64,000 nucleotides of DNA from positions 62,001 to 126,000 of the forward strand of contig JAFXTC010000031.1 of the NCBI GenBank assembly GCA_017525235.1. The letters run 5' to 3'. The notes under the pieces are model-generated. The model made no database searches. It worked only from the letters and a program-made list of their open reading frames with translations, and was not told the DNA's origin. The DNA comes from Bacteroidaceae bacterium (lineage in GTDB: Bacteria > Bacteroidota > Bacteroidia > Bacteroidales > Bacteroidaceae). Numbering within the stretch: the stretch's first letter is position 1; every line of letters starts with the position of its first letter. This document shows positions 17,141-60,300 of this stretch, one piece after another. Both the position numbers and the translations under genes were made by a program.

Positions 17141-17483
17141 ATGAGGAGAAGCCTTATTATTTTTGTCGCATCAGTTCTAGTGTTGTCGGTTGCTGCTAAA
17201 GGAACCAGACAAGGCATACTTTACTCCTCGTAGGCTGACTGTTGAAGAGATGCAAAAACAGAAGAAAAACGGTATCGGAGTTTACCAGACAGACCGCTCG
17301 CTTTCTCTTACACATCGTGTCATATTCTGTGATAAGGATTACTGGATTATTGATTTGGCTGGTAATGTGCTTATGCACTTCACCAAGCCCATTTTGCAGA
17401 CTGAGGTCATGGAAAATGTACTGGTAGGTTTGACTGACCAGAATGTTATTTTCCAATTCGACTTAAGTTCGTTAAATCTCTAA
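17141..17483 (+). pseudogene. Frameshifted small secreted protein
   Basis: The ATG at 17141 gives a signal peptide MRRSLIIFVASVLVLSVAA and then stops at a TAG after 30 codons. The next frame continues without a break from about 17190 to 17483 ('LLKEPDKAYFTPRRLTVEEMQKQ...QNVIFQFDLSSLNL'). A single-base indel near 17190-17200 separates the two. Repaired, it would encode a secreted protein of about 114 residues of unknown family, following gene B by 18 bases. It could be a real mutation or a sequence error; no classic slippery heptamer is present. Confidence 0.65.
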
Positions 17484-17553
17484 AGCAAAAACCCATCAGC
17501 CCGTCAGGGTGCTTATATGGATTCTCTTATAAATCTTCGAGCAGGAAGGGGAT

Positions 17554-17611
17554 GACTGAGGTGTACTAAACAAGTTGACAGTTTTGCGCATAAAAAACAG
17601 TTTAGGTTGAC
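17554..17611. repeat. Left half of the split repeat
   Basis: 'gactgaggtgtactaaacaa' onward matches 9838-9895 up to the phrase 'cataaaaaacagttt.ggtt'. The match then breaks off, and resumes at 18119 after about 507 intervening bases. Confidence 0.75.
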
Positions 17612-17637
17612 AAAAAAAAATCAAAAAAACACGAAAC

Positions 17638-18079
17638 AGCCTACATGCCTACATAATTTTGCTCTTGAGCACCGATGGTTATCGTGTTCTCTTTTGCTTC
17701 GAGCCTACATAAAGCCTACATAAAGCCTACATGATGCCTACATAAAAATGGCCGAAAAACGCGTTTTTGGCTGCTTTTACGCTTGCTTATAAACGATACT
17801 TCACTTGACTGTTTATAAATTCTCTAGAGAATTTTTCGGAATGTAACTTAGTTTCGGTTGGAATGAAACGTGAATACAACAAAATTCTCTAGAGAATTTC
17901 ACGACTTGTAACATCGCAGAAACTTGCTTATAACGAGCTTCGAAGCCGTTTAACAGCTAAAATGCCCCAAAATCATGTAGGCTTATGTAGGCATCATGTA
18001 GGCTTTATGTAGGCTTGCGACTGCCCGAATCCCTTTATTTATCGGGGCTCATTGCCATTTTTATGTAGGCATGTAGGCT
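17638..18079. mobile_element. Nested inverted-repeat element built from GCCTACAT units
   Basis: The 442-bp element has perfect 19-bp ends: AGCCTACATGCCTACATAA (17638-17656) and its reverse complement (18061-18079). Inside is a second perfect inverted pair of 34 bp (17712-17745 and 17983-18016), also made of GCCTACAT units. Two copies of the 18-bp palindrome AAATTCTCTAGAGAATTT (17817-17834 and 17882-17899) lie in the centre. No open frame of note is present. The uninterrupted relative at 9838-9969 shows it was inserted or expanded within a pre-existing sequence. It could be a MITE-like element, a recombination site or a structured RNA. Confidence 0.65.
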
Positions 18080-18118
18080 GATTAGCGAAAACCAAAACGA
18101 AAACCAAAATGTAGTCTT

Positions 18119-18198
18119 TATACAAAATATTTTTGGTACACAACTTTGTGGACCACAAAGTTGTGTACCTGTCCTTTAGCCGTTGTCAGACGCTCAGC
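18119..18198. repeat. Right half of the split repeat, with perfect 17-bp hairpin
   Basis: The sequence from 'tatacaaaatattttt' to 'ttgtcagacgctcagc' matches 9892-9969, ending in what are the last codons of the TPR regulator in the other copy. GGTACACAACTTTGTGG (18135-18151), one A, then its exact complement (18153-18169) form a hairpin. No regulator gene follows, so only the tail of a second copy survives. Confidence 0.75.
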
Positions 18199-18300
18199 CT
18201 GGCACGATTGTTACGGTTGGGGAATTTAATGTGAGACCTTGTTTGCCCTGATGGGTGACTAGTGTTTTAAATTTGTGCTGACATTTTCCCTTTGTGGGAG

Positions 18301-20907
18301 TTAACGCTTTTTCTTTCCTTTGGCAGGAGCTTCAGGAGCAGGGTTTACCTTGTCCATGAGCACACGGAACCAGTAACCACCGATTACCGAGCGAGCCTTG
18401 AAGCCTGTCATGTAACCAGTCTTGGTGTCGCTCCAGTCTGAGATGGGAACACGGCTCTGAGTCTCGTTGATGTACTTATAAACGGGACTGACGAACTTCT
18501 TGAACGTATCAGCATCGGGAGCCATAGCAGCGGTCCACATAATCCAGTCGCTCTTGGTGTAATCCTTGCGGCAATCCAAAGGCAGACCATACTTGTTCTG
18601 CTTGGTCAGGTAATACTTGATTTCTGTCTGCATGGCATCGTTGGGGATAACGCCAGTATTCCACAATTTATCCCATACCATATTATATTTCTGACTCCAA
18701 GTGTCCTTGCCGGCACCATATGCCAACTCGTAATGGTCGCCCACCTTGGTTTCCTTCTCCCAGGCAGCAGCCATCTCCTTGGCCTTGGCATTATACTTCT
18801 GGTAAACATCATCCTGGCCCTTCATCTTTGCCATCTCGGCATAACCGGCAATACCCATGATGGCCTTCAGAGCCAAGTTACAGTTACCTGCCCAGTGACC
18901 GGCAAAGTCGTCGGTACAGAGCTGATTAGCAGGATGCAAGCCGTTCTCCACAAGATAATCAACCCAAATGGTCATCATATCCCAGTAGGGATCCACGTAA
19001 GCCGTATTGCCATCCAGTTTGCAGATTTCTGCAGCCAAGGTGAGCATGTTACCAGACTCCTCCAATGGCATATCGCCACCATATACCTGCTTGTTAGCCA
19101 AGGGGTACTGACCCAGGTCGTGAGCAGCGAAGGGCTTAGTCCAACGGCCGCTCTTGCTATAATCGAAGATTGAGGTCATCATGGCTTTTTGCAGGTTAGG
19201 GTTGTAGCAAAGAACCAACGGAGCCTCAGGATAAGTAAGGTCAACGGTGTTCACGCAACCGTTAGAGTTGTTCTCCTTTGAGAACCACAGCAGGTTGCCG
19301 TCCTTATCCTGGAAGAGCTTATGGGCTGCCATCACATGACGGTAAGAGCCTGAGAGAATTTCGGCATATTCCTTGCCACCAGACTTGAAGCCGTCGTCAT
19401 AAATCATCTTATCGAAGGCACGGCAGCGCTGCATGATGTTAGCATAGCCGTTCTGCATATTCTTGAAAGCATCAAAGATGGTCACGCTGCCACCATGAGC
19501 CCAATAGCCCTTATAGCGATTGTAGAAATACTCGATGTCTTCGATTTCATCGTAACCCATCATCATAAAGCTACTGGCAGTTTCTACACTGCCGAAGTCG
19601 TGGGTGTAAGCCAATACTGGCATCTCGGCAGGCTTGCGAGCAATGATGCCGCGGTTCCACTGACCGAAGCCGCCACGCTGACCAGCCTGAGGACGCTGCC
19701 CGCCTTGTGGGCGCTGGCCCTGACGGAAGGTGCGGCCTGTTTCAACAAAGTTGTTCTGAATCTCTGAAGCATCGCCCATCATAACACGACCGTTGATGGC
19801 GGGGATGTAGAAGTAACCCCAGTCGATGCAGATACCGTCACCAGATTTAGCCAAAATGGGTTGCTCGATGGTACCGGTACGAACATACTGCACACCCTTC
19901 TCGTTACCCATCGTAGTAATGGTGGGTTGTGTGTTAGTATTTACAGCCTGCAAAGGATTGGCGCTGATGTACACCTGAACATCGTGCTTCTTGCCATCGG
20001 TGGCACGAACCTGATAAGAAATATAGTTGACGGGAATAGAGATGAGGTCGTAGTCGTCAATCAGCATGGGAGCGGTGAAAACAACATCCAACTCTACAGG
20101 ACCACAGGCAAAAGTATAATAGGTATTGGTAGCCAATACATCTACGCTCTTCTGCTCAGCCACCAGGATGTTGGCACCCTTGGGCTTGATGTTCTTGAAC
20201 AGGCCGAAGTCGACATACGCACCACCCGTTGTGTTGTGGCAGTGAGCGGAGATAATGTTCTTGCCGGCATGGAGGAGGTTCTTCAGGTCGCCATCAAGAT
20301 GCAGCACCACATTATTGACCCAAGTCTCGCCTGTATCGGCCACCTTGGTGCCATTGATATAAAGCTCGAATACATCATCGTGCGAATACTTCACGTACAA
20401 ATCCTCCTGCAACTGCTGTGCTGTCAGCTCCACCTCACGACGGATATAGATATCACTCTCTGCACGACCAAAGCGACGATTGCTGATATTCTCGCCTTCG
20501 GTACCCCAAGCAGCCTTTTCGGTGCGCCATTCAGCATCGTTGAAACCCTCCTTTTGCCAACCGTCGGCAGGTGTCTGATGGGTTACCTTACCTTCCCAAC
20601 GCTCCTCGTCGGACATGGGAGCAACAGAAGAGAGCACATAGGTCTGCTCAGCACCCATAAAGCGATAAGCTGTGCCGTCAACACGCAGGAGTCCCAGAAT
20701 GGGCTTCTCGTCGTTAGTCCAGTGACGAGTGGTTCCATCGGTCAACTTATCGTAGGGCGACCAAATAGAAAAATAAGGGTCATTTACTACCAAAGGCACA
20801 GAAGGCAGACGCAGGTCTGTGCTGGCGTATGGCTTAAAGAACTCTGCAGTCTGTGCGAAAGCCATTGTCGCAGCAAACAAGCAAGCGGATAAAATTTGTT
20901 TTCTCAT
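18301..20907 (-). CDS. Secreted glutaminase-A-family protein (GtaA-like)
   Basis: The 868-residue protein has a signal peptide (MRKQILSACLFAATMAFAQ). The N-terminal phrase 'DLRLPSVPLVVNDPYFSIWSPYDKLTDG', the central region and the C-terminal helical part ('DWIMWTAAMAPDADTFKKFV', 'YMTGFKARSVIGGYWFRVLMD') follow the DUF4964/5127/4965/1793 order of GtaA-like proteins. Residues 105-245 are an inserted galactose-binding-like sandwich ('LYVKYSHDDVFELYINGTKVADTG'). Residues 395-420 are a low-complexity QRPQGGQRPQAGQ loop. Fungal GtaA hydrolyses glutamine; Bacteroidetes members lie among glycosidase genes and their substrate is uncertain. It follows the GH127-like gene by 59 bases on the same strand, probably in one transcript. 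Confidence 0.8.
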   Translation of the reverse strand: MRKQILSACLFAATMAFAQTAEFFKPYASTDLRLPSVPLVVNDPYFSIWSPYDKLTDGTTRHWTNDEKPILGLLRVDGTAYRFMGAEQTYVLSSVAPMSDEERWEGKVTHQTPADGWQKEGFNDAEWRTEKAAWGTEGENISNRRFGRAESDIYIRREVELTAQQLQEDLYVKYSHDDVFELYINGTKVADTGETWVNNVVLHLDGDLKNLLHAGKNIISAHCHNTTGGAYVDFGLFKNIKPKGANILVAEQKSVDVLATNTYYTFACGPVELDVVFTAPMLIDDYDLISIPVNYISYQVRATDGKKHDVQVYISANPLQAVNTNTQPTITTMGNEKGVQYVRTGTIEQPILAKSGDGICIDWGYFYIPAINGRVMMGDASEIQNNFVETGRTFRQGQRPQGGQRPQAGQRGGFGQWNRGIIARKPAEMPVLAYTHDFGSVETASSFMMMGYDEIEDIEYFYNRYKGYWAHGGSVTIFDAFKNMQNGYANIMQRCRAFDKMIYDDGFKSGGKEYAEILSGSYRHVMAAHKLFQDKDGNLLWFSKENNSNGCVNTVDLTYPEAPLVLCYNPNLQKAMMTSIFDYSKSGRWTKPFAAHDLGQYPLANKQVYGGDMPLEESGNMLTLAAEICKLDGNTAYVDPYWDMMTIWVDYLVENGLHPANQLCTDDFAGHWAGNCNLALKAIMGIAGYAEMAKMKGQDDVYQKYNAKAKEMAAAWEKETKVGDHYELAYGAGKDTWSQKYNMVWDKLWNTGVIPNDAMQTEIKYYLTKQNKYGLPLDCRKDYTKSDWIMWTAAMAPDADTFKKFVSPVYKYINETQSRVPISDWSDTKTGYMTGFKARSVIGGYWFRVLMDKVNPAPEAPAKGKKKR

Positions 20908-57386: not shown

Positions 57387-60300
57387 TTAATTAATTTTAT
57401 AAGTCAGATATTCTGTTGCATTAAGAAAATCCATCAGTTTTTTGCTTACTTGATAGCACTTTGTTTTAGACTTCATATGCAAAACGACAGAATCTCCACC
57501 TCCGCATATATTCCATTTTACATCAACAGAGGGAGCATCTTGTCCCTTTCCCTTATTCAAACTAGAAGGTTGCTGCATCTCTCGTATATGTTTATAAAGC
57601 TCGGCCACATCATCACTTTCCAACCTGCTGGAATCAATCATTATGGTAATACTATGGATAAGCTTATCCTTTACATCAGGCAGGAACTCTATCTTTCCTA
57701 TCTTGAGTTCCAAAATATCCTGATTATACTGACGGCCTTGAACACGCCCCGTTATATATACCAGATTGCCTGGCTGTGTGAGATAGCCCTTCCATTGTGC
57801 CCAGTCATTACCGAACAAAGCAATTTCTGCAGAACCGGTATAATCCTCCACCATAACTATTCCGTAAGGTTGGTTTGTCCTGGTAATACCTTGACGTTTT
57901 AGTCCAGTTACAATGCCACCCAACCTTACGTCGGTATCTTTGAATGGAGTAAGGTCGTTCATCTGTTCCATGTGCAGATTGCAAATACCATTGAGTATTA
58001 CGCTATATTCATCCAATGGGTGTGCAGAGAGGTAGATTCCCACTAATTCACGCTCTTTGTTGAGTCGTTCCAAATCATTCCATCTTTCTGTCACAGGAAT
58101 CGGAGGTTGATGCTTGTCGATAGCCTCCATGCCGAAAAGTGAGAACTGTGCCTCCATCTGAGCTTGCTGATATTGGTTGCCGTATTTTGTAAGAGAATCG
58201 ACAAAAAGTTCACCTTTTGCATTGGGAGCAATAAATTGTTCTCGGCTTATCTGTTTAGAGAAAGTATCAAAGGCACCACTCAAAGCAAGGCATTCTATAC
58301 CGCATTTCTTGACTGAAGAAATAGAAACACGTTCTACGAAATCAAAGATATCTTTGTACTTGCCGTTCTTTTCACGTTCTGAGATGATAGCAGCAGCGGC
58401 AGCTTCACCCAATCCTTTGATTCCATTCAGACCGAAACGAATTTGCTGCTTATCGTTCACACCAAAATCAGCATGCGACTCATTGACATCAGGCCCTAAT
58501 ACCTCAATCTTCAAGTTTCGGCATTCATCCAGAAGCTTTGTTATTTCTTTGATGTCGTCTTTTCTCCTCGTTAACAAGGCAGCCATGAATTCTGCAGGAT
58601 AATGTGCTTTTAAGTAGGCCGTCTGATATGCGACCCAAGAATAACATGCTGCATGTGATTTATTAAAGGCATAAGATGCAAATTTCTCCCAATCGCTCCA
58701 AATCTTATCCAGTACAACCGGGTCATATCCTCTTTCTTTCCCACCATTGATGAAAAGCGGTTTCATCTCGTCAACAATAGCTTTCTTCTTCTTACCCATG
58801 GCCTTACGGAGCGCATCAGACTGGCCTCTGGTAAATCCTGCCAACAGACGACTTAGCAACATTACTTGCTCTTGGTAAACGGTAATGCCGTATGTATCCT
58901 TCAGGTACTTTTCCATAACCGGAATATCATACGTAATCTCTTCGTTTCCATTTTTGCGTTTGATAAACGAGGGAATATAATCCATAGGGCCAGGTCGGTA
59001 AAGGGCATTCATGGCAATAAGGTCCTCGAAGACGGTTGGCTTAAGCTCTTTCAAGTATTTCTGCATACCGGCAGATTCAAATTGGAAGGTTCCTACCGTC
59101 AAACCCTTTTGATACAATTGATATGTTAACTCATCGTCAATCGGAATATGGTCAAGGTCTATATCAACTCCGTGCGCTTCCTTGATAACCCTACAGGCCT
59201 CCTTTAACTCCGAGAGTGTTTTCAGCCCCAGGAAGTCCATTTTAATCAGACCAGTACTCTCTATAACATGCCCGTCATATTGTGTGACAGCCGTCTTACG
59301 GTCTGGAAAATCTGGGTCGTCAGCCGTAGAGATTGGCACGTGATCTGAAATCGGGTCACGGCAAATAATAAATCCACAGGCATGAATACCTGTTCCACGA
59401 ATCTGACCCTCCAATTGCTGAGCATATTTTATTGTGTCTGCCTCACGGTAATCGGGTGAAGACTGTGCTATCTGCAACTCTGGTGTACATGAGATGGCAT
59501 TCTTCAGGTTCATCTTCATGCCTTCGGGCAAACGGTCTGGTATAGCTTTACAAAGTGCATTGCTCCTATCCAAAGGAAGATCCTCCACACGAGCCACATC
59601 TTTAATGCTGTTCTTGGTGGCCATAGTGCCGTATGTAATGATATGTGCACAATTCTCATGCCCATACTTATCCATTACCCATTGCAGCACCTTACCTCGT
59701 CCGTCATCCTCGAAATCTGTATCAATATCTGGCAACGAGATACGGTCAGGGTTCAGGAAACGCTCAAATAGCAAATCGTACTTCAGCGGGTCCAGTTTGG
59801 TGATACCCAAACAATAGGCTACCACACTACCTGCCGCGGAGCCACGTCCCGGTCCTACCCAAACATCCAAATCCTTGCGGGCAGAATTGATAAAGTCCTG
59901 CACAATAAGGAAGTAGCCTGGGAAACCCATCGTTTTCATAATGTGCAGTTCAAAGCGAATACGGTCGTCTACCTCTTTGTCTAACGGGTCGCCATAGATA
60001 CGGTGAGCGCCTTCGTAGGCAAGTTTCCCTAAATAATCGGCCTCGAATTTAATCCTGTATAATTTATCATAGCCTCCCAGTTTCTTTATCTTCTTCTCAC
60101 CTTCTTCCTTGGGGAGTGGGTTCTCGCCATTTTCGTCACTGGTAAACTCCCTGAACAAGTCTTCTTCTGTAAACTTCTGCCGCCACTGCTCCTCCGTACC
60201 AAACTCCTCTGGTATCGGGAAGAAGGGCATGATGGGATCTGACTCCAGATCATAAGTCTCCACCTTATTCAGAATCTCTACTGTATTGCTGAGGGCCTCG

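Follow-up and report, generated by a model that had tools for sequence, protein, structure and literature searches.

The question raised by this locus is what kind of element is formed by the nested inverted repeat at positions 17638 to 18079 of the window, the whole stretch of 64,000 nucleotides from a Bacteroidaceae bacterium analysed here, and which protein might act on it. The repeat is real and lies far beyond chance. Its basic word, GCCTACAT, occurs exactly 13 times on the two strands of the window with 1.84 occurrences expected, a count reached in none of 100 shuffles, and 12 of the 13 lie within the element. Perfect 19-bp ends (17638 to 17656 and 18061 to 18079), a perfect 34-bp inverted pair (17712 to 17745 and 17983 to 18016), twin identical 18-bp palindromes and the absence of a gene inside had been described in a sequence-only reading; all of these were verified, the element containing no open reading frame of at least 60 amino acids. 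The symmetry at three levels is that of one architecture, in which an outer GCCTACAT pair is separated by a 48-bp gap from four GCCTACAT words in each arm. On the plus strand the left outer iteron pair GCCTACATGCCTACAT (17639 to 17654) forms one end of the element, and the same pair, with at most two mismatches, bounds the complete copies discussed below. It is followed by a spacer of 48 bp (17655 to 17702) and by the left inner array of four GCCTACAT in 11-bp steps (17703 to 17743, words starting at 17703, 17714, 17725, and 17736). The core carries palindrome 1 (17817 to 17834) and palindrome 2 (17882 to 17899), both AAATTCTCTAGAGAATTT and 65 bp apart from centre to centre, with the core interior at 17835 to 17881 between them. 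On the minus strand lie the right inner array of four GCCTACAT (17975 to 18014, words at 17975, 17985, 17996, and 18007, hence steps of 10, 11, and 11 bp), the right spacer of 48 bp (18015 to 18062) and the right outer iteron pair GCCTACATGCCTACAT (18063 to 18078). An A/T-rich left extension (17619 to 17638) adjoins the end pair and a right extension (18079 to 18098) continues past the other; as loose A/T-rich similarity is seen for about 20 bp outside the end pairs of many copies, the outer boundary of the element is uncertain.

The element sits between the 3' ends of two convergent genes. Its right-hand neighbour encodes a GtaA-type protein, and the two nearest genes on the left had no Pfam match. 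The GC skew is 0.008 to the left and -0.044 and -0.024 to the right. Two further repeats were noticed in the surroundings. To the right of the element, at 18135 to 18169, two perfectly inverted 17-bp halves (GGTACACAACTTTGTGG/CCACAAAGTTGTGTACC) enclose a loop of one base, and the half motif also adjoins an element in another genome (L160). Repeats of the CGAAAACCAAAACG type (18086 to 18109 in the window) flank the element and occur free of it at eight further places of the same genome (listed G000 contigs are C3, C7, C10, C28, C50, C52, and C67).

Five places of its own genome carry the element, which are the window, complete copies on contigs C34 and C65, and copies with one arm missing on C33 and C56. 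The further copies for which a search had been proposed from the window alone were thus found, four in the same genome and others in relatives, and the refuting case of a single copy in all genomes was not borne out. Of 139 genomes of the genus, its own included, 21 have the exact end pair, the richest of them with 18 pairs in forward and 14 in reverse orientation. When named bacterial contigs were scanned, 85 stretches with the element were obtained, mostly from ruminant metagenome-assembled genomes (MAGs) and labelled Prevotella, Prevotellaceae, Bacteroidaceae, or Bacteroidales, with a single Pseudobutyrivibrio; the isolates among the carriers are Prevotella sp. ne3005 and Xylanibacter ruminicola Ga6B6. 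One IMG/VR contig has a complete element (L206). No match to the element was found in phage records, and the plasmid search gave nothing beyond a match of 32 bp, or 7% of the query, on which grounds an origin of the element from phages or plasmids was rejected. Most genomes used here are draft assemblies, which break at repeats.

From 80 of the 85 contig stretches, ten stretches of the own genome and its relatives, and the window, 57 distinct complete elements of 143 to 624 bp were collected, allowing up to two mismatches per end pair. The distance from outer pair to array is 46 to 48 bp in 106 of 113 arms, the array step is 11 bp in 315 of 338 cases, and four words, one mismatch allowed, make up the inner array in 69 of the 113 arms. 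An exact palindrome pair (AATTCTC-NN-GAGAATT) occurs in 30 of the 57 elements, 65 bp (24 elements) or 66 bp (six elements) apart; the remaining 27 have fewer than two exact palindromes. In the palindromes seven-base arms flank two variable bases (TA, GA, TC, or AA). This geometry might be read as that of a serine-recombinase site; no recombinase was found among the neighbours scanned. The spacings of 11 bp and 65 bp are kept, and much of the intervening sequence is not.

A home for the element, which could not be seen from the window alone and was therefore missing from the sequence-only reading, became apparent from the genes around its copies. One gene family recurs beside it in nine of 86 loci, with the start codon facing the element at a distance of 54 to 166 bp; the copy on contig C65 of the own genome is one of these loci. 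The encoded protein has about 704 amino acids, three of the nine being cut or longer, and a protein of 127 to 164 amino acids diverges on the other side of the element in five of the nine. Pfam searches with two proteins of each kind found a BT4734-like_N and a VapE-like domain in the larger one (3.2e-35 for VapE-like) and HU-HIG in the divergent one; the HU-HIG assignment is by Pfam in two loci and by similarity in the others. In the 13 distinct loci that have a helicase at least 76% identical and sequence available beyond the element, a HU-HIG-like gene stands on the far side of the element in nine (L042, L113, L141, L153, L166, L327, L385, L386, and L145, the last via its contig neighbour L136), a fragment of one in L112, and none in L174, L178, and L269. 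In the PDB the large protein matched a single entry, 7pds_A ('Similar to D. nodosus vapE'; E 1.1e-9 for a single-sequence query, 2.3e-16 for a profile), which we take to be the structure of the Rep protein of the staphylococcal satellite SaPI, and comparison with PHROG gave helicase/primase families down to 8.8e-42. The ATPase motifs GxxGxGK[ST], N[IL]DEFD, and GTTN are kept in 21 homologues of at least 42% identity. In all 21 aligned homologues of this group D-x-D of primase motif I is replaced by E-x-N, and only L302 among 67 aligned homologues retains D-x-D; as the primase motif is degenerate, the helicase would need a priming partner.

The other neighbours of the helicase-linked loci are metabolic genes and, on the opposite side, genes of restriction or toxin-antitoxin type. 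No integrase or phage gene was found among 17 neighbour proteins, which cover a few kb per locus. In L113, L141, L153, and L174 restriction-modification, nuclease, Fic/antitoxin, or HigB-type genes lie opposite the helicase, as if the loci bordered a hotspot of defence genes. In genome G507 the close helicase gene adjoining its element is interrupted.

A homologue at E 1e-30 is present in 85 of the 139 genomes, one of at least 62% identity in only nine. The end pair is found in six of these nine as compared to 21 of 139 overall (P 3.7e-4, at a cut-off of 62% that was set once the data were known). Another word accompanies the helicase of G033, which is one of the six, and other words are also found with the helicases of the three genomes outside the six (G087, G137, and G143). 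On the other hand, no helicase of at least 62% identity was seen in 15 of the 21 genomes that carry the end pair, including the multi-copy genomes G125, G090, G083, and G074. These are MAGs of 62 to 89% completeness, and missing sequence is unlikely to account for every case, so that the element apparently can be kept in the absence of a close helicase.

The regions upstream of 82 helicase homologues (three loci being counted twice) were searched mechanically for any 7-mer that occurs first in forward and then in reverse copies. With at least three copies per inverted arm as the criterion, a threshold chosen after seeing the data, an array was found in 15 of 16 distinct loci at 62% identity or more having 600 bp or more upstream, in three of four loci at 42 to 44% (the 7-mer of L273 among these being that of the core palindromes), in one of 59 homologues below 38%, and in one of 100 control regions upstream of other genes. 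Beating all of 40 shuffles, a weaker sign, was seen in 16 of 16, four of four, 17 of 59, and 12 of 100, respectively. Among the close homologues L145, L267, and L268 were left out of this search for having less than 600 bp upstream; L267 shows half an element, L145 has the left end pair, and no element was seen in the 496 bp upstream of L268. L286, L328, and L341 were counted once with L178, L174, and L329. In L272 the automatically selected word CGCCCTG is not an iteron, and by eye one arm of CTCTACA is visible.

The words differ between homologues. They include GCCTACAT, AACTACAT in Ga6B6, GCCTACAC in G137, ACATACAT/ACCTACAT in G143, TCGACAT and AACCCTA in ne3005, CCTCTAC in G087, and CTACTAA in G165; at 42 to 44% they are ATGTCAT in Ga6B6 and GCCGTCA in ne3005. 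The layout, judged by eye, is much alike across words, with an outer word, about 47 bp, an array, a core, and the mirror image. Prevotella sp. ne3005 has four full-length paralogues of at least 42% identity with one word each, GCCTACAT, TCGACAT, AACCCTA, and GCCGTCA, and a fifth at 38% (L346) without an array. Between word groups the last 80 or so amino acids of the helicase vary most, with a mean identity of 0.72 to 0.81 inside the GCCTACAT group and of 0.43 towards the other groups, and the ATPase is nearly constant. In this comparison the effect of the word cannot be separated from that of distance, the other word groups being the more distant relatives. In Ga6B6 the GCCTACAT elements stand away from any helicase, and the nearest helicase (83% identity) has AACTACAT upstream and shows no shift in its C-terminus. 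The matching of helicase and word argues strongly that the one would bind the other. That binding would lead to replication at the element is a weaker step.

The core of the element is a palindrome pair in many members. In others it consists of palindromes with a different sequence that recur every 22 bp, examples being TTCCCA-TGGGAA (G087) and GTTTCA-TGAAAC (G125). A 22-bp period is the best one in five of 34 cores as compared to one of 112 control stretches. In G283 the core interior clearly holds a pair of 22-bp units, from which about four sites spaced by 22 bp would result. Arrays of 21 to 23 bp adjoin 11 of 22 palindrome-less complete elements, many of them from RUI569, and two of 35 with a palindrome. 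In RUI569 the short, core-less elements have arrays of a 22-bp unit (CTGCTTGCTGTCGCATCGTCTC type) beyond one of their ends; these arrays are common to several loci, including L101, L110, L128, L129, L149, L154, L161, L171, L178, and L180; other genomes have other 22-bp units. Upstream of a VapE homologue of 30% identity in G148 (L282) about eight 22-bp units with a TCACG-CAC-CGTGA palindrome were noticed. The single contig of G386 holds four palindrome-pair cores, three of which were sampled (L376, L379, and L382) and have no detectable iteron arms; the VapE homologues found in this genome are of the C-terminal type only (35 to 38%).

Solitary copies exist for at least two words, GCCTACAT and TCGACAT, as ne3005 contains another two TCGACAT elements that lack a helicase match in their vicinity. 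One of these two (L349, contig C6, about 57458 to 57966) is a chimera in which a palindrome core joins a TCGACAT arm to a GCCTACAT arm. In the 99% complete genome G283 there are ten palindrome cores, with GTGCCAC words in the three that were sampled, and one half element of this kind, core included, immediately precedes a remote VapE-like gene (L398, 28% identity). In Ga6B6 a search showed that a solitary element (L217) directly adjoins what is left of a lost helicase gene, namely its last ten codons; in G507 the counterpart (L377) has by eye the same stretch with one substitution. Both are remnants of a deletion. Such remnants were seen at one locus in two genomes only, so that the solitary copies are not deleted helicase loci in general. 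By eye, five one-ended copies (L105, L116, L125, L142, and L175) resemble halves that arose by decay or recombination.

The closest parallels come from origins of replication that lie next to a helicase gene. The C-terminal domain of SaPI Rep reads origin iterons beside its gene, apparently as two hexamers (PMC7581432), and the opposite-orientation repeats of the SaPI and SV40 origins are described as loading two head-to-head rings or hexamers (PMC9894130). The arrangement resembles that of SaPI, and also of the SV40 T-antigen and SCCmec Cch2 origins, in that a gene for a VapE-type or SF3 helicase adjoins repeats of opposite orientation around a central region; by analogy, the C-terminal domain implicated in recognition (PMC7581432, PMC9894130) may have its equivalent in the variable C-terminus found here, and the ATPase motifs of the VapE/SF3-type helicase are intact. 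There are also differences. The SaPI origin lies downstream of rep, whereas the array here is upstream of the start codon; the arms are larger and stereotyped in two parts (pair, about 47 bp, array), with a palindrome or 22-bp core; unlike in SaPI, integrase and phage genes are missing among the 17 neighbours scanned; solitary extra copies are spread across the chromosome; and the primase motif is degenerate.

On balance, and with a confidence only a little above even, we take the element to be the cognate, origin-like site of a VapE-like AAA+ helicase, of which the window would hold a solitary, dispersed copy. The SaPI-like plan, a helicase of that kind, and its variable C-terminus are the grounds on which the element is read as a putative loading site. 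Its home would be upstream of the chromosomal gene of this SF3-type, self-loading, Rep-like helicase, often with HU-HIG diverging on the opposite side. The words would be iterons bound by the helicase, and the two inverted arms would load one ring each, head to head; it is because of this presumed mode of loading that the element is called origin-like in the sense of SaPI and SV40. The core, whether palindromes or 22-bp arrays, may serve as the melting or architectural part and perhaps be bound by HU-HIG or another factor. Solitary copies would then be non-autonomous derivatives, spread or copied in trans. This reading also draws on the helicase-linked copies, the arrays of other words upstream of other homologues, the four words of the ne3005 paralogues, the enrichment of the end pair, and the rigid spacings. 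Several points weigh against it, namely the 15 genomes that have the end pair but show no close helicase, the array placed upstream of the gene where SaPI has its origin downstream, the degenerate primase motif, the GCCTACAT elements of Ga6B6 away from any helicase, the scarcity of arrays at homologues below 38% identity, the single visible arm of L272 and the 496 bp without an element at L268, the 27 complete elements short of an exact palindrome pair, and the interrupted helicase gene of G507.

A conventional miniature inverted-repeat transposable element (MITE) is a rather unlikely alternative. The arms would then be ends bound by the transposase of some unseen DDE or tyrosine-recombinase element, and copies next to a helicase gene would be ordinary insertions favouring the promoter side of VapE-like genes. 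The element looks like a MITE in many respects, being short (143 to 624 bp, within the 50 to 1000 bp usual for MITEs) and non-coding, with inverted ends and several to many dispersed copies per genome, and a MITE-like mobile unit had been suggested for the window from the sequence alone; dispersal, lack of coding capacity, and copy number bear this suggestion out in part, while a transposase-bearing relative, a constant target-site duplication, and an empty site were not found in the loci examined. The position in the window is not shared by the seven closest homologous loci of the right-hand gene (87 to 90% identical, in seven genomes, 1.5 kb on each side), from which the element is absent; as these stretches have no match to the left side of the window, no precise empty site can be read from them, and none was seen in the other loci examined. 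The copies of one genome are far more alike than those of different genomes, the median share of common 9-mers outside the words being 0.404 and 0.009, respectively, with the pairs not independent. Copies in the 15 genomes without a close helicase would also fit a MITE, as would up to about 200 bp outside one element end that are common to different loci of RUI569. By eye no constant target duplication lies beside the ends, whose outer limit is uncertain as stated above. What argues against a MITE is that the only open reading frame of at least 90 amino acids between the ends in 86 loci has 95 amino acids (L144), so that no autonomous copy with a gene between its ends was seen, and that no transposase occurs among the recurrent neighbours of these loci, in assemblies which tend to break at repeats. 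Nor is there one among the 17 neighbours of the helicase-linked loci, where the sole exception is an AAA/DUF4143 ATPase of L141 with a weak TniB-type match, and no transposase-bearing relative was found in plasmids, in phages, or at the array sites of the own genome. A MITE would also leave the arrays of other words at the same place upstream of other helicase homologues unexplained.

The ends of Tn7, Mu, and Tn916 carry several transposase or integrase sites each, at fixed spacing and in inverted orientation. The several fixed-spacing, putative protein sites per inverted end are shared by the element described here; unlike in those elements, no transposase or integrase was found, both ends are alike, and the words vary with the helicase homologue. 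Within the Bacteroidota a parallel is BrickBuilt of Porphyromonas gingivalis, an intergenic, non-coding, multi-copy MITE with internal tandem repeats of 23 nt (PMC4596501). It and other P. gingivalis MITEs share with our element the phylum, the intergenic position, the lack of coding capacity, and the occurrence in several copies, and 22-bp arrays are found in or beside some elements here. The ends of BrickBuilt, however, are of the IS5 type (GAGACCTTTGCA) and match ISPg elements, whereas here iteron arrays with GCCTACATGCCTACAT form the ends and the linked gene encodes a helicase, and the 23-nt minisatellite AGAYCATARTATCCTCTCRTRTG differs in sequence from the internal and flanking repeats found here.

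It is improbable that the element is an autoregulatory operator, by which the helicase or HU-HIG would control their own divergent promoters and of which the solitary copies would be decoys or remnants with no role in replication. The position between divergent genes fits such an operator. Of 23 distinct loci with at least 42% identity, 17 also have a TAnnTTTG box, presumably the Bacteroidota -7 box, at 31 to 89 bp ahead of the helicase start codon, which may point the same way. The helicase remnants beside the solitary elements of Ga6B6 and G507 also agree with it. Against this, the array lies upstream of the box and not over it in the loci read by eye, an operator of 400 to 600 bp with two mirrored arms would be a large one, convergent genes flank the copy in the window, and the number of solitary copies would need another reason.

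A site of centromere or partition type, with 11-bp iterons bound by a ParR- or ParB-like protein and dispersed for chromosome organisation, is very improbable. The parC site of plasmid R1 has 11-bp iteron arrays in two blocks with a central region between them, a layout that the element resembles. The linked protein is a helicase, however, and not a partition protein, the arrays are inverted, and the exact end pair is absent from 118 of the 139 genomes of the genus. A structured non-coding RNA, which had been considered from the sequence alone, or a terminator is scarcely tenable and was rejected, as the strong predicted fold of the window element as single-strand DNA (z = -9.5) stems largely from the inverted arms, the helicase-linked copies lie between divergent genes even though the window copy lies between convergent ones, the 11-bp and 65-bp spacings are conserved more than the sequence between them, and in positions 17400 to 18400 of the window no Rfam family reached its gathering score, the one match below threshold being mir-186 with 25.9 bits against 70.

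The linked genes belong to the BT4734-like/VapE-like and HU-HIG Pfam families of the Bacteroidota. A cognate arm-core-arm element beside such genes, together with solitary copies, does not appear among the literature matches listed, neither in the open-access texts on BT4734, HU-HIG, and VapE with HU and amidase nor in those on Prevotella repeats or MITEs, as far as the accessible portions of these texts go. The putatively helicase-bound, origin-like element favoured above would offer a testable role for these genes.

If taken one step further, the element might even represent a self-spreading origin of replication, that is, a class of non-autonomous elements that would use a self-loading replicative helicase instead of a transposase as the factor acting in trans. 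This extension is tentative, and we regard it as unlikely in its full form. Paralogues with diversified words would each maintain and scatter their own solitary origins, and these could recombine through the shared core, as the chimera of ne3005 suggests, giving many conditional initiation sites per Prevotella-type chromosome.

Satellites, plasmids, and viruses are known to combine iteron origins with self-loading helicases, every replicon being served by a pair of its own. In the present case such a pair is found among ordinary chromosomal genes, with a word that varies by helicase homologue and with orphan copies throughout the genome. Should the helicase fire these elements, local over-replication, changes in copy number, or dispersal would arise from them in gut bacteria. 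Should it do no more than bind them, they would provide natural matched pairs of protein and word from which it may be learned how VapE-type helicases read DNA.
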